The position numbers and the translations under genes were made by a program. Positions 8,808 to 37,093 of a stretch of 42,893 nucleotides of DNA are shown piece after piece. Numbering within the stretch: the first letter of the stretch is position 1; every line of letters begins with the position of its first letter. Where the stretch lies: the NCBI GenBank assembly GCA_013204605.1, contig JABMNI010000010.1, forward strand, positions 1 to 42,893. Reading direction: 5' to 3'. This stretch comes from Ignavibacteria bacterium (lineage in GTDB: Bacteria; Bacteroidota; Ignavibacteria; Kapaibacteriales; Kapaibacteriaceae). The notes beneath the pieces are model-generated. The model worked only from the letters and a program-made list of their open reading frames with translations. It was not told where the DNA came from and made no database searches.

Positions 8808-10343
8808 GTGTTTTCACCGCTAACTAAAATATTGCGTCGTGCCGTACGCGAGGCTGCAAAGACAGACGAGGCACGACGCACGTTTGTTAAAACGGCAGCG
8901 CTTGCGGCTGCTGCCACTGCCCTGCCCCCAATACTAATTCGGTGCACCAAGCCACAAGAAGTTTCCGTAGGCAAGGATTTTAACGTAGCTGTTGTGGGCG
9001 CGGGAATTGCCGGACTCAACGCAGCGCGTTATTTAAAAAACGGTGGCCTAAAAGTTAGACTGTTCGAAGCAACACAGCGCACCGGAGGCCGAATTCTATC
9101 GGCAGATAATTTATTGGTGAAGGGGGCTGTTACAGAACTTGGTGGCGAGTTGATAGATTCTAATCACGCCGAGATGTTGAGCCTTGCCCGCGAGTTCGAG
9201 TTGGATTTGATTGATTTGCAAGACGCAGATTATGCAACGCTGAAAGACACGTTCTTTTTCGACAACCGAAAAATTACTTCCGCCGATATTGCGAATGGGA
9301 TAGCCCCCTACCTGAAAACTATTGCGCATGACGCGTCAATGTTGCCGTTCGATTTGCGACACCTAAACAAGAGTCCGGCGCAGGCGCTTGATGACATGTC
9401 GATGGAAACCTACCTAACACAACTGGGCGTTACCGGCTGGCTGCGACGGTTTATTGAAGTGGCGTTCGTGACGGAAAATGGTACTGAGTTGGCTGATCAA
9501 TCGGCACTGAATTTTATTACGTTGGTGAGCACGGAGTTGAATAGTGGGGCGTTCCAGCCTTATGGTGAGAGCGATGAACGGTACAAGGTGCGCGGTGGCA
9601 ATCAGCAAATCACGGATATGCTTTCCGTTGAAGTGCGCGATGGAATTCACACCGGTATGATACTTGAGCGCATTGCAAAAGTTGGTGGCAGATTTCAATT
9701 GACGTTCCGAAAAGATGCAGCGATGGTTGAAGAAATTGCCGACGTAGTTGTGTTGGCAATTCCGTTTTCGATTTTGCGTTCAATTGAAATGGCGATGGAA
9801 TTGCCTAAAAACCTTCACAACATGATTCATCATTTGAACTACGGACAAAACAGCAAGATTGTAGTGGGATTTAGAAAACCGTTCTGGCATGAATCGGGCG
9901 CTAACGGTGTGATGTTTAGCGATGGTCCGGTGCAGCTTGCGTGGGACAACACGGCGCTGCAAAATGTTGATGGTGGCGGACTCACGTTTTTCCACGGCGG
10001 TAGTATGTGCAGAGCTATGGGCGCTGTGCAAAAAGACAAGGCCGCTTCGCAAATGATGGACTCCATTGCGCAGGCGTGGCCGGCCCCGGCTGCCGACATG
10101 GCAGTGGGGCGCGTTGAACGAATGTATTGGCCGGCAGCTCGGTTTGTAAAGGGGAGCTATTCGAGTTTTGGGCCCGGGCAATGGACGCAGATGTACGGCG
10201 TAGGTGCAACTAGCGTCGATGGATTGTACTTTGCCGGCGAACACACCAACGAAGAATTTCGCGGCTACATGAACGGCGCTGCATTGTCGGGCAAGACCTC
10301 CGCTGAAAAAGTTTTAGCTGCAATTGCGCGCGCAACATTCTGA
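8808..10343 (+). CDS. FAD-dependent amine oxidase with Tat-type signal
   Basis: 511 residues from GTG 8808. The N-terminus has a twin-arginine-like motif (ARRTFVK) before an Ala-rich hydrophobic stretch, suggesting export in folded form by Tat. A Rossmann FAD-binding motif follows (VAVVGAGIAGLNAARYL, ~61-77), then FEATQRTGGRI, and the C-terminal FAD motif GLYFAGEHTNEEFRGYMNGA typical of flavin amine oxidases (monoamine oxidase/L-amino-acid oxidase family). The substrate is unknown. The last 79 bases overlap the end of the convergent COG2509-type gene. Upstream ATG starts are lacking, so GTG was kept. Confidence 0.9.
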   Translation: MFSPLTKILRRAVREAAKTDEARRTFVKTAALAAAATALPPILIRCTKPQEVSVGKDFNVAVVGAGIAGLNAARYLKNGGLKVRLFEATQRTGGRILSADNLLVKGAVTELGGELIDSNHAEMLSLAREFELDLIDLQDADYATLKDTFFFDNRKITSADIANGIAPYLKTIAHDASMLPFDLRHLNKSPAQALDDMSMETYLTQLGVTGWLRRFIEVAFVTENGTELADQSALNFITLVSTELNSGAFQPYGESDERYKVRGGNQQITDMLSVEVRDGIHTGMILERIAKVGGRFQLTFRKDAAMVEEIADVVVLAIPFSILRSIEMAMELPKNLHNMIHHLNYGQNSKIVVGFRKPFWHESGANGVMFSDGPVQLAWDNTALQNVDGGGLTFFHGGSMCRAMGAVQKDKAASQMMDSIAQAWPAPAADMAVGRVERMYWPAARFVKGSYSSFGPGQWTQMYGVGATSVDGLYFAGEHTNEEFRGYMNGAALSGKTSAEKVLAAIARATF

Positions 10344-30823: not shown

Positions 30824-31249
30824 ATACCGTCCCCGTGTAAATGCATTTTGATGTGTGATGTCCCATGCTCATACCGCAATTTACGCGATACTCGGGTAGG
30901 GGGCTATCTGATCCGCATAAATTTCAATTTTCGGTCGCGCTAACTCGACGTAAAAACTGTGGTAATCTGCAGCGAATAACAGCACATTCAGCCAGAAACG
31001 GCGCTAACTCTGTGGTGAATTGCAGCTAACTCTGTGGCGAATCGCAAAAACCTCCGTATCAAATCAGCGTGGCTACGAGTTCTTCGTCTATGGACTTGTA
31101 ATCAACCGGAACATTCAGCACCTCGATTGGCTGTACTTACACCTCACTGAACTGACCCTTTCAAACTCGACCGATGTTTAGGTGCTTTTTGAATAGTTCG
31201 CTTTTCTAACATTAACTTGGTTTGTTTTCTAACATTACCTAAATTGTCA
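30824..31249. repeat. Gap with a 22-bp tandem duplication
   Basis: GCTAACTCTGTGG plus nine variable bases occurs at 31003-31024 and again at 31025-31046, with a degenerate earlier copy around 30939. Nearer the toxin-antitoxin genes, TTTTCTAACATTA occurs twice (31202-31214, 31226-31238). One AGGGGGCT word lies at 30898-30905. No supported ORF exists. Confidence 0.7.
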
Positions 31250-31265
31250 TATCAATAAATTGATA
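31250..31265. promoter_or_regulatory. Palindromic operator candidate for the toxin-antitoxin pair
   Basis: TATCAATAAATTGATA is a perfect inverted repeat (TATCAAT, two A's, ATTGATA), 21 bases before the antitoxin ATG. The antitoxin has an XRE helix-turn-helix, and such proteins usually repress their own promoter by binding this kind of palindrome. CATAAT (31267-31272) next to it may be part of the promoter. Confidence 0.55.
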
Positions 31266-31286
31266 CATAATGACTGTGAGAACAGA

Positions 31287-32141
31287 ATGAATACAAATAC
31301 AATACTAACGCAAATTCAGATCGGTTATAGGTTGTCTGAGCTTCGGAAAATGAAGGGTATGACTCAAGAAGATCTTGCCAGTCAGATTGATGTTTCCAGA
31401 CCAACGTTAGTACAAATTGAACAAGGGAACAGAAATGTCAATGTGCCGGAGCTGCAAAAACTATCCTTGGTTTTAGGATTCTCTTTGGATGAATTCGTCT
31501 CCAAGGTTTTTGTAGTTGACCATCCTGAAAACACAACGAAGGAATCACCAAAGAAGGACAGGTTGAGAAAGCAAAAGTCAGTGAAGGAAAAGTCAGTGAA
31601 TGAAATCGACGAGCGTATCTCATCTCCGCGGATACAAATCAAGAAATTTAAGAATGTCCTTCTATACATTCTGGAGAAATGCGCAGGTAAACCAAACGTT
31701 GGAGAGACCGTGCTATACAAGCTTCTTTACTTTTCTGATTTTAACTATTACGAATTGTACGAGGAGCATCTAACAGGCGCGATGTATAGGAAATTGCCGT
31801 ATGGTCCCGTTCCGCATGGCATCGACTCAGTGTTACAAAGCATGATTGCGGAAGGTCAGCTAAAGAAGGTGAAAACCGAGTTTCATAGCTACCCTCAAGT
31901 TCGCTACTTGCCCCTTGCAAAATCTGATTTGACCTCGATACTAGCTAGTGAAAAGGAAGTGTTAGATAAAGTAATTGATCAAATGGGCGATTGGTCGGCA
32001 AGCGCAATAAGCGGCTATTCCCACAAAGACATGCCCTGGTTAGCCACTAAAGAAGGCAAGTCCATCAATTATGAATTAGTCTTCTATCGCGAGCCTCCGT
32101 TTTCAGTTAGGAACTACGGCGAACAGAATGAAGTGCAATGA
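31287..32141 (+). CDS. Panacea-domain (DUF4065-type) antitoxin with XRE DNA-binding domain
   Basis: 284 residues from ATG 31287; the TTG start nine codons earlier lacks support. The N-terminal ~70 residues are an XRE helix-turn-helix (IGYRLSELRKMKGMTQEDLA, SRPTLVQIEQGNRNVNV). A charged linker (~85-110) leads to a Panacea/SocA-type domain with LYILEKCAGKPNVGETVLYK, LLYFSDFNYYELYEEHLTGA and YRKLPYGPVPHGIDSVLQ. This domain is known as a versatile antitoxin that neutralises many toxins by contact. It overlaps the toxin gene by four bases (ATGA), so the pair is translationally coupled. A palindrome upstream suggests autorepression. Confidence 0.88.
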   Translation: MNTNTILTQIQIGYRLSELRKMKGMTQEDLASQIDVSRPTLVQIEQGNRNVNVPELQKLSLVLGFSLDEFVSKVFVVDHPENTTKESPKKDRLRKQKSVKEKSVNEIDERISSPRIQIKKFKNVLLYILEKCAGKPNVGETVLYKLLYFSDFNYYELYEEHLTGAMYRKLPYGPVPHGIDSVLQSMIAEGQLKKVKTEFHSYPQVRYLPLAKSDLTSILASEKEVLDKVIDQMGDWSASAISGYSHKDMPWLATKEGKSINYELVFYREPPFSVRNYGEQNEVQ

Positions 32142-32482
32142 AGTTCGACGAGCTTGTCGAATTCAACAAGGATTTGAAGAAACTTGCAAAGAAGTACAGA
32201 ACTCTAATCGAAGACCTGAGAGTGGTGCGGCAGGTGTTAGAGTATGCGCCGGATGAACGACCTCCATTTAGCTATCGCATTGACAATCTGGGATTGAAAA
32301 CGTGCGTCATTAAGGTCAAGAAGATCGCCTGTAAATCCTTAAAGGGCAGGGGAGTGAATTCCGGACTTCGGTTGGTTTATGCGTATTTCCCAGAAAATTC
32401 TGCGATTGTATTCATTGAATTGTATCATAAGAATGACAAGGAAAACGAGGATCGAAAAAGGATTCTAGAAAACTTCGATTAG
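32138..32482 (+). CDS. RelE/ParE-family toxin
   Basis: 114 residues. It fits RelE/ParE-like toxins: an N-terminal helical hairpin (FNKDLKKLAKKYRTLIEDLR), then strands with KVKKIACKSLKGRGVNSGLR and the end IVFIELYHKNDKENEDRKRI. The KN/DKENEDRERI-type end is common in RelE-like toxins paired with Panacea or HTH antitoxins. Activity could be mRNA cleavage at the ribosome, but catalytic residues are not certain. It is coupled to the antitoxin gene by ATGA overlap and would be held in check by that protein. Confidence 0.82.
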   Translation: MKFDELVEFNKDLKKLAKKYRTLIEDLRVVRQVLEYAPDERPPFSYRIDNLGLKTCVIKVKKIACKSLKGRGVNSGLRLVYAYFPENSAIVFIELYHKNDKENEDRKRILENFD

Positions 32483-32524
32483 CGCTTTTCTGCGTGAATA
32501 GCACACCCCACGTAGCCCCCTTTA

Positions 32525-33148
32525 CTAAAAAAACACGCCCACCATTTTATCCAATACCCAACCAATGGGAAGAAGATGAAGGTCGGTGTAGCTGTCGGCA
32601 ATAAGGATTACAAATAAAGCGGTGCCGCCGTATTGAGTGGCCTTGATTTCAAATTCGCGCGACAACTTCAGGCTTCGAAAGACAACGTGGCTGCCGTCGA
32701 GCGGCGGAATTGGTATGAGGTTAAACACAAACAGCGCAAAATTTATATACATGAAAACGTACAGCAGTTGTGCCACCGTTTGCAGCACCACACTATCTGT
32801 ACCGGCTACAAAAAATATTAGGATGTGCAAAACAACCACGGCCCACAATCCCAACAGTAAATTTGAAATCGGTCCCGCAATCGAGATCAGAATACTGTCC
32901 CTGTCGGGATTTTTCAAATTCTCCGGATTAAACTGCACCGGCTTTGCCCATCCAAACCCAGCAAACAAAATGAACAGCATGCCAAACGGGTCGATGTGTT
33001 TGATTGGGTTTAACGTCAGCCGACCTTGATTTTTCGCTGTATCATCGCCCAACCAATATGCCACTATTCCGTGCGCAAATTCATGTACCGTAAACCCAAC
33101 AACAATCGCCGGAAGGGAATACAACATACTTTCGATGTCAAAATTCAC
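32525..33148 (-). CDS. Site-2 protease family (M50) membrane metalloprotease
   Basis: 207 residues with four to five helices. The zinc-binding HEFAHG is at ~22-27 (FTVHEFAHGIVAYWLG) and the second metal site is in NLIPIPPLDGSHVV (~158-171). This is the compact SpoIVFB-like form without PDZ domain, which cleaves helices inside membranes. The substrate is unknown. TATCTTTG on the minus strand at 33212-33219 may be its -7 promoter element (TAnnTTTG), 64 bases before the ATG. Confidence 0.92.
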   Translation of the reverse strand: MNFDIESMLYSLPAIVVGFTVHEFAHGIVAYWLGDDTAKNQGRLTLNPIKHIDPFGMLFILFAGFGWAKPVQFNPENLKNPDRDSILISIAGPISNLLLGLWAVVVLHILIFFVAGTDSVVLQTVAQLLYVFMYINFALFVFNLIPIPPLDGSHVVFRSLKLSREFEIKATQYGGTALFVILIADSYTDLHLLPIGWVLDKMVGVFF

Positions 33149-33478
33149 AGTAACTCAACTTTGCGTAACACCGCCAACAATGGAAAATTCACTCACGAAT
33201 TGATTTAGTATCAAAGATATAGTTTTCAATCCCCTATTCATCTAGATTTTTCGACGCGCTTTTAGTGCAATTTTATAGCGAAGGGGGCTTAGCCCCTTAC
33301 CCGCCAATTCACTTCGAACATCACCACTCTGCAGACAACTCTGCATGATACATCGTTCACTAAATTGCTTAAGTCCTCCTAATGTATGACAAGTCATTCA
33401 CGAACTACCTACTACGACTTGTGATTTAGTGTAGTAACCTCGCACTGAATTCTAAGAGCCGTTAGTATTATTGCGTTA
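33149..33478. other. Intergenic gap holding an inverted pair of the over-represented word
   Basis: The only structured item is AAGGGGGCTTAGCCCCTT at 33281-33298, two copies of the recurrent word facing each other. They can form a short hairpin with one bulged G. No T-run follows, and no gene was seen in the rest. Confidence 0.6.
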
Positions 33479-33784
33479 ATGAAACCCAACATGAATCCAA
33501 AACCAAGCCGACCTATCGAGTATCCGGCGTACCTGTACATGGCCTGCGATGCCTACAGCAGATTCGTTTTTCAACTGTTGATTCACGACAGCAAGTTTGC
33601 GCCGCTCATCAAAAACAATTTCACTTTGGTGTTGAGTGGATTCGAAGACATGCTGGAAGATATCACGGAGCTGATTGCCCCAATGAAAGGCAACGTTATG
33701 TATAACGAGGATTTTCACAAAGAGATTGTTCGTAAACCAGTGAGAACGCTGATGAAGATGGTGAGGAATAGACATGGACACTAA
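33479..33784 (+). CDS. Unrecognised small protein, first gene of a coupled pair
   Basis: 101 residues, no signal peptide. It has aromatic-rich PAYLYMACDAYSRFVFQLLI and an acidic helix-like middle (LSGFEDMLEDITELIAP), and a basic end (RTLMKMVRNRHGH). No family was recognised. Its last 11 bases overlap the start of the next gene on the same strand, which argues that it is a real, translated gene and that the two products are linked. Confidence 0.6.
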   Translation: MKPNMNPKPSRPIEYPAYLYMACDAYSRFVFQLLIHDSKFAPLIKNNFTLVLSGFEDMLEDITELIAPMKGNVMYNEDFHKEIVRKPVRTLMKMVRNRHGH

Positions 33785-34625
33785 GAACACAACCGATGAT
33801 TTTGCCTCTCGAATGAACAACAAAGGAATTCACGACTTCATGGGTCTGTCACCTAACCAGATGCGCCAAATTGTCCACTTTCCGTATAGTGAGAGCGCAC
33901 CGGTGCAGTTCAAAAGTCAGATACGCAACGAAGTGCTTGATAAAATTCCGCTCTTCCGAATTGCCGAAGAATATTGTAAAATTTTACAACGAGATAAGTT
34001 CGTCAAGCTAACACCACTTGGGGCACTTCCAAAAAAAGTAATGGTAGAACTTTATGCCATGAAATTTATTCTCGACGAGCACTTAGAAAGTGGTTTAACA
34101 AAGCTGTCAAGAGAACAAGATTGCATTTCAATCATGAGTGCTCGAATTACTGCCGAACATGCTGGGCTGGTAAAGAAAGCCAACGGCAAACTCACGCTCA
34201 CAAAAAAAGCCCTCGAGTTAATGCAACCCAATAACCGCCAAAAACTGTTCCAGCTTTTCTTTGAAACATTTACCAACAAATTCCGCTGGGGCTATTTAGA
34301 CGGTCACTCGGACGAACCTGTAGGGCAAACCGCTTGGATGTTCTCGCTTGTTATGTTAAACGGGCTTGGCGGAATAGTTACCACGGGTACTTTCTTTTCA
34401 ACCAGATATTTACGGGCAATCCCACGTTTCAGGGACACGTTTAAATCCGATTTCCTATCCTTCGAGGACGGCTTTCACCTTTGCTACGTAACAAGAACCT
34501 TCACTCGCTTTTTCGAATGGTTTGGTCTAGCTACCGTTGTGCAACTCGGAACGTACTACGAAGCCTCAACGAACTCCTACGTTCGCACAGATCTCGTGGA
34601 AGAAATTTTTGAGTTCAGGTTGTAA
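33774..34625 (+). CDS. Uncharacterised protein with a GLSPNQM-type N-terminus, second gene of the pair
   Basis: 283 residues. An early motif IHDFMGLSPNQMRQIVHFPY resembles a segment seen in SEC-C and pRiA4b ORF-3-related proteins. Then comes LTPLGALPKKVMVELYAMKF and a probable winged-helix-like stretch ending LVKKANGKLTLTKKALELM. Later come WGYLDGHSD and an aromatic-rich tail. No catalytic motif or membrane helix is evident. The start overlaps the upstream gene by 11 bases. It may be a DNA- or protein-binding component; function not assigned. Confidence 0.65.
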   Translation: MDTKNTTDDFASRMNNKGIHDFMGLSPNQMRQIVHFPYSESAPVQFKSQIRNEVLDKIPLFRIAEEYCKILQRDKFVKLTPLGALPKKVMVELYAMKFILDEHLESGLTKLSREQDCISIMSARITAEHAGLVKKANGKLTLTKKALELMQPNNRQKLFQLFFETFTNKFRWGYLDGHSDEPVGQTAWMFSLVMLNGLGGIVTTGTFFSTRYLRAIPRFRDTFKSDFLSFEDGFHLCYVTRTFTRFFEWFGLATVVQLGTYYEASTNSYVRTDLVEEIFEFRL

Positions 34626-36866: not shown

Positions 36867-37093
36867 TTCTTTTTTTATAAAGAAATCTCCCTTGATTGTC
36901 CTACTCGTATGGCTTTTCGGATGCGCCCCGTTTGTTAAAGTGGTAGCTAGACTCCACTTTCGTGAGGCTGAACGTACGCAATTTTTAGTAAACGGTTTGA
37001 CAACGATTTTCAAATCGGTCGAGTATCACAAAATCAACACCTTGTTGTGTGCGAGTTATTGCGAACGAGTATGCTGTTTAACACGGTGATTTG

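Follow-up and report, generated by a model that had tools for sequence, protein, structure and literature searches.

In the genome of an Ignavibacteria bacterium of the family Kapaibacteriaceae, the word A[AG]GGGGCT is hugely over-represented, strand-balanced and mostly genic. Among the genomes sampled it is rich in one family only, and related words replace it in some sister genera. Copies on the same strand are evenly spaced, the two strands look independent, and they seem to be read separately. Abundance, strand balance, placement in genes in all six frame/strand classes, conserved flanks, family restriction and dialects together make up an uptake-type signature, and in this respect the likeness to uptake sequences drawn in the initial annotation is upheld; a missing pilus ATPase, missing decayed variants and the strand-specific spacing set the word apart from the usual uptake sequences. 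The window analysed here, i.e. the whole stretch of 42,893 nucleotides, is an entire contig (C2) of this genome (2.69 Mb, 86 contigs) and holds 33 copies of the word (14 on the plus strand, 19 on the minus strand), two of which form an inverted pair at 33281-33298. Judged from sequence, we put the odds at about even that in this pair two copies of an uptake-type tag specific to the family have come together by chance or under a weak preference. Most simply, it would be a by-product of the high word density, and perhaps intergenic tolerance of such pairs helped to produce it.

The pair lies 135 and 182 bp from the two flanking gene starts, in the following setting.
33149-33478, no strand: gap between two gene starts, 330 bp
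33282-33289, plus strand: word AGGGGGCT, copy 1 of the inverted pair
33291-33298, minus strand: word AAGGGGCT, copy 2 of the inverted pair
33282-33298, RNA fold of the plus strand: hairpin with a 7-bp stem and a 3-base loop, made by both words
32525-33148, minus strand: M50 site-2-protease-like gene, reading away from the pair (Pfam PF02163, 2.3e-18)
33479-33784, plus strand: unrecognised ORF of 101 aa, reading away from the pair
33774-34625, plus strand: unrecognised ORF of 283 aa, overlapping the 101-aa ORF
32514-32521, minus strand: word copy, the nearest on the same strand to the minus copy of the pair, 777 bp off
30898-30905, plus strand: word copy, the nearest on the same strand to the plus copy of the pair, 2.4 kb off

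The sequence AAGGGGGCTTAGCCCCTT at 33281-33298 consists of two exact copies of A[AG]GGGGCT, inverted and separated by 1 base, which confirms the head-to-head pair that the initial annotation had placed in the gap between the M50 gene and the unrecognised genes. On the plus strand the pair folds at -10.4 kcal/mol into a 7-bp stem that contains one G-U and carries a UUA loop, and on the minus strand at -8.9 kcal/mol; of 200 shuffled sequences, 4 fold as well as the pair with its flanks. The bulge described earlier is not found in the best plus-strand fold, and the reported lack of a T-run holds on either side, the 10 bases beyond the pair containing 2 T on one strand and 4 T on the other. The flank scores of the plus and minus copies reach the 30th and 37th percentiles of 499 copies and the 92.8th and 94.9th percentiles of random sites, respectively. 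Searches of Pfam, NCBIfam and PADLOC gave no match for the 101-aa and 283-aa ORFs. Elsewhere in the window, one protein has a T9SS sorting domain (TIGR04183), which points to Bacteroidota, and positions 31260-32482 of the plus strand possibly encode a toxin-antitoxin pair, namely an antitoxin-type protein with HTH and Panacea (SocA-like) domains and, after it, one of 114 aa that matches RelE weakly, under the cut-off (E 0.03).

The abundance of the word was determined in a sample of 741,034 bases (the window and 39 stretches, about 27% of the genome, with 1803 N bases), which contains 500 copies against ~24 expected, i.e. 0.67 per kb, made up of 276 copies of AAGGGGCT and 224 of AGGGGGCT. These are split 245/255 between the strands, and their density shows only a slight downward trend with atypical genes (0.60 to 0.69 per kb). 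Aligned copies share loosely conserved flanks, roughly T-rich-GG-W-ARGGGGCT-TT-S-Y-G-G, and single-base variants of the word stay near background (0.4-1.7 times expectation, one at 2.5). According to a simple custom gene caller, 451 of the 500 copies lie within or overlap predicted genes (256 on the coding strand, 188 on the other strand and 7 straddling a boundary) and 49 are intergenic, the latter including two words of the window (9121 and 9302) that are probably coding, since the caller misses the ORF at 8808-10343. Genic copies use all six frame/strand classes, which rules out protein-coding constraint as the cause of the word. Two 200-kb blocks of opposite GC skew from the single-contig genome G004 have strand counts of 41/45 and 52/46, i.e. 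no replichore-oriented signal is seen in them; a third, 20-kb piece of this genome has 6/2. Separately, both the window and the sample show an excess of a second recurrent word group, AATTCGCAATT / CGTAATTCGC, which is AATTGCGAATTA-like.

Extended by one base, ARGGGGCTT occurs in 114-977 copies in 19 of the 23 family members among 60 genomes, in 16-48 copies in the remaining four and in 4-83 copies in the 37 genomes from other families of the order. Among 247 phylum-wide genomes, 8 are rich, all of them among the 10 members of the family of the window, and the highest genome outside the family has 153 copies, with 142 of the reversed control word. A few other non-family genomes top their control at low counts, chiefly G199 (another family of the same phylum), which has a small excess of 72 copies in its whole genome against 9 of the reversed control. 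Dialects were found in one genome each, sampled over 148-279 kb: ARGGGGCC in G006 (33 vs 7.6 expected), ARGGGGCA and ARGGGGCG in G005 (30 vs 8.1 and 20 vs 7.8), and ARGGCGGC(AAGG) in G002 (94 vs 24.6; control AYGGCGGC 74 vs 47.3). In G003, a weak carrier, the last bases of the word are mixed, and a search for a dialect in G008 detected none. The word types ACTCGTCACT/ACTTGTCACT are over-represented in stretches of G010 (L145-L149) and G002, an excess that possibly stems from a repeat array. Among the matches listed for the open-licence PMC literature, in which a mention could be missed, the word is unreported as a genomic repeat, and no established uptake sequence in Bacteroidota is reported.

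The arrangement of the copies depends on their orientation. Within 600 bp, the sample of the genome of the window (G000) has 38 same-strand and 109 opposite-strand pairs; with orientations shuffled, the mean for same-strand pairs is 71.8, and 0 of 2000 shuffles are as low as the observed value. The deficit fades out by about 1-1.5 kb. Opposite-strand pairs within 1 kb are at or slightly over random expectation (89 convergent and 101 divergent, each vs 82). Evenness is visible only after splitting the strands, the gap CV being 0.70 (plus) and 0.81 (minus) against about 1.0 for random positions, whereas both strands pooled give a CV of 0.96 vs 1.01, which is not significant. None of ten control words has a same-strand deficit; 7 of them, one a G-run, have a same-strand surplus within 300 bp, and the remaining 3 have at most 6 pairs each. 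The deficit is repeated in G004 (19 same-strand and 46 opposite-strand pairs within 1 kb, P = 5e-4) and in G013 (7 and 20, P = 0.01), and no exclusion is seen in G010, where pairs are too few to judge (3 same/4 opposite, and 5/6 within 1.5 kb). In a tag recognized as double strand, a second copy should be redundant in either orientation; exclusion on one strand thus implies, by argument, that the strands are presented singly to whatever selects the word. Such a strand-specific pattern fits single-strand transport, recombination after ComEC or a directional Chi-like reader.

The Chi sites of RecBCD/AddAB are short words read on one strand, the known ones are G-rich, and some of them are biased towards the leading strand. 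As a Chi-type recombination signal, A[AG]GGGGCT would be read on one strand and in one direction by a translocating AddAB-like helicase-nuclease, and each strand would need its own regular copies. The strand-independent even spacing suits such a directional reader, the word is G-rich, and the PDDEXK_1 nuclease domain (found in AddB) is present in all 23 family genomes, for the most part in frames of ~840-1260 aa. However, genera without the word possess this domain just the same, and neither G004 block has the strand skew that a leading-strand bias, as in some Chi sites, would give. We prefer an uptake-type tag, which we hold to be about an even prospect, to a Chi-type signal, which we consider unlikely, for three reasons: the word shows no bias around the chromosome, its conserved flanks run several bases to either side, and it changes among genera of one family that all possess the AddB-type domain. 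Even spacing per strand and presence in all larger stretches sampled would also suit a site bound inside the cell by a chromosome-organising or another protein, unrelated to DNA uptake, but replichore bias was not seen, and an orientation-dependent exclusion that ignores the other strand would be hard to explain with a double-strand binder, which makes this explanation very unlikely in our view.

Of the machinery for uptake, ComEC (PF03772) is present in 21 of 23 family genomes. PF00437 (type II/IV secretion ATPase) exceeds the cut-off in 13 of 14 control genomes but in none of the 23 family genomes, three of which have weak partial matches that fall short of it. On the strength of this ATPase search, a type IV pilus route was rejected as unlikely. 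Matches to PF11104 (PilM_2) in 21 of 23 family genomes, 20 of them over the cut-off and none in G000, were set aside as evidence for a pilus, as the best one, the one checked singly, is FtsA (TIGR01174, 387 bits).

To our knowledge, only two families, both proteobacterial and both with type IV pili, have established uptake sequences. The USS of Pasteurellaceae is a core with looser flanks, as is A[AG]GGGGCT. Like the word described here, the DUS of Neisseriaceae is short, non-palindromic and present in many copies in and between genes, with dialects in related genera (PMC3630211, available part). Nevertheless, word and phylum differ, and the family studied here is without a pilus ATPase above the cut-off. 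Moreover, same-strand copies exclude each other here, whereas orientation and spacing are not mentioned for the DUS in the available part of PMC3630211. According to the same text, inverted DUS pairs occur in all genomes with dialects and are linked to terminators (PMC3630211), whereas paired copies are not in overall excess here.

In density the word is similar to the USS, with 0.67 per kb compared with 1471 copies in the 1.83 Mb of H. influenzae (PMC1939737, available part). Both are free of a chromosome-wide orientation bias (USS: PMC1939737, same part), and in both one orientation is commoner in reading frames, by 256 to 188 here (USS: PMC2346458, available part). In H. influenzae, uptake is reported to be orientation-independent in that part of PMC1939737, whereas spacing is strand-specific here. 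Some mismatched forms are over-represented in H. influenzae (PMC1939737, available text), as is also reported for N. gonorrhoeae, in contrast to the variants of our word, which lie near background. An unpublished figure quoted in this source puts uptake sequences that occur as inverted repeats at about 10% only (PMC1939737). A phylum-level relative, Riemerella columbina (Flavobacteriaceae), is transformable and prefers its own DNA in competition tests, and its authors sought repeated words as putative uptake sequences, the function of which they left open; in the available part of PMC7965970, the words of Table 3 are A-rich low-complexity k-mers, none of them like A[AG]GGGGCT.

Close pairs were counted in the whole genome as GGGGCT copies with gaps of up to 30. 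There are 10 convergent pairs, arranged as the one at 33281, and 18 divergent ones (AGCCCC...GGGGCT), against 14.9 expected for each inverted kind, a value extrapolated from the word density of the 741-kb sample; direct pairs number 7+7 vs 14.9 expected per strand, i.e. about half. Inverted pairs are thus not in overall excess, and the possibility raised in the initial annotation that they are no more common than chance holds for the total, but not for the pairs between genes: 16 of the 28 are intergenic (5 convergent, 11 divergent), and one further divergent pair overlaps a predicted gene, compared with 49 of 493 sample words, pair members included (Fisher P = 6e-9). In a hand tally of full-word pairs, 5 convergent and 7 divergent ones are intergenic vs 1.1 expected each, and 3 of each kind lie inside genes vs 8.2 expected each (P = 0.003 for the deficit). 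The whole genomes of G003 and G005 have 64 and 30 direct GGGGCT pairs (gaps of up to 30), above most relatives and without a deficit. G004 has four near-identical convergent word pairs at ~6-kb spacing in C1:1121563-1140590, which suggests a repeated gene block.

Pairs were classed as terminator-like if a stop codon lies no more than 60 bp away and T makes up 5 or more of the 10 bases that follow on the transcribed strand, limits that were set after viewing the pair table. By these limits, 11 of the 28 pairs are terminator-like: 3 of the 10 convergent ones and, among the 18 divergent ones, 8, of which 3 are without one or both full words. The 33281 pair is not among the 11. The suggestion that paired words double as terminators therefore stands for some pairs elsewhere, located at gene ends with T-rich tails, but not for the 33281 pair itself, and the doubt already voiced that its hairpin terminates was justified. 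As in intrinsic terminators derived from paired uptake sequences, with likely examples elsewhere in the genome, the 33281 pair forms a stable hairpin from two inverted words, and both the excess of intergenic inverted pairs over chance and the 11 close pairs past a stop codon with a T-rich tail would suit a terminator or attenuator such as the paired uptake sequences of Neisseria provide. Unlike these, however, it is without a T-run and lies between two gene starts; an Rfam search gave no match there. With no T-run and with the two neighbouring genes reading away from the pair, we reject a terminator role, which appears highly improbable. A candidate cis-regulatory element, a DUF805 RNA (RF03081, 76.6 bits), lies elsewhere in the window, at 36894-36962 on the minus strand.

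The terminator-like pairs elsewhere in the genome would also agree with the pair being the remnant of the end of a lost or replaced gene, in which case the M50 gene, like the unknown gene pair, may have arrived later. The M50 protein has a best-segment identity of at most 53% to the 80 best of 169 homologues, mostly from Treponema at the top, a selection that may omit very near genomes. By contrast, inspection by eye of the short ORFs of 33149-33478 did not reveal any leftover gene, and an origin of this kind is quite unlikely.

Returning to the preferred uptake-type tag, we propose that cells would favour the uptake or recombination of DNA that bears the word, and that recognition would occur on one strand, e.g. 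while a single strand passes through ComEC or afterwards. A single copy in every 1-2 kb of the incoming strand would then suffice, so that more copies on the same strand would gain nothing and the other strand would be unaffected. The outer-membrane step would use something other than a type IV pilus. Biased uptake would spread the word, and the 33281 pair would have no role of its own. Several observations speak against an uptake-type tag: with PF00437 over the cut-off in none of the 23 family genomes the known uptake machine is apparently missing, and no receptor has been recognised; single-base variants are not enriched, although slow biased uptake might leave decay products; and a Chi-like site would give strand-specific exclusion, too. 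Additionally, G010 alone shows no exclusion, no dialect was detected in G008, and G199 has its small excess outside the family.

Taken together, we tentatively speculate that DNA self-recognition by a word read on one strand only may have arisen in a family of Bacteroidota, with no type IV pili involved and no common origin with the systems of Neisseriaceae and Pasteurellaceae, and that incoming strands of ~1-2 kb may have left the same-strand exclusion as their trace. As a simple signature across the genome, strand-specific spacing could distinguish double-strand recognition at the surface from later recognition on a single strand. If true, this family would provide a third, unrelated case of uptake sequences, one without the pilus ATPase, and would open the evolution of DNA self-recognition to comparative tests.
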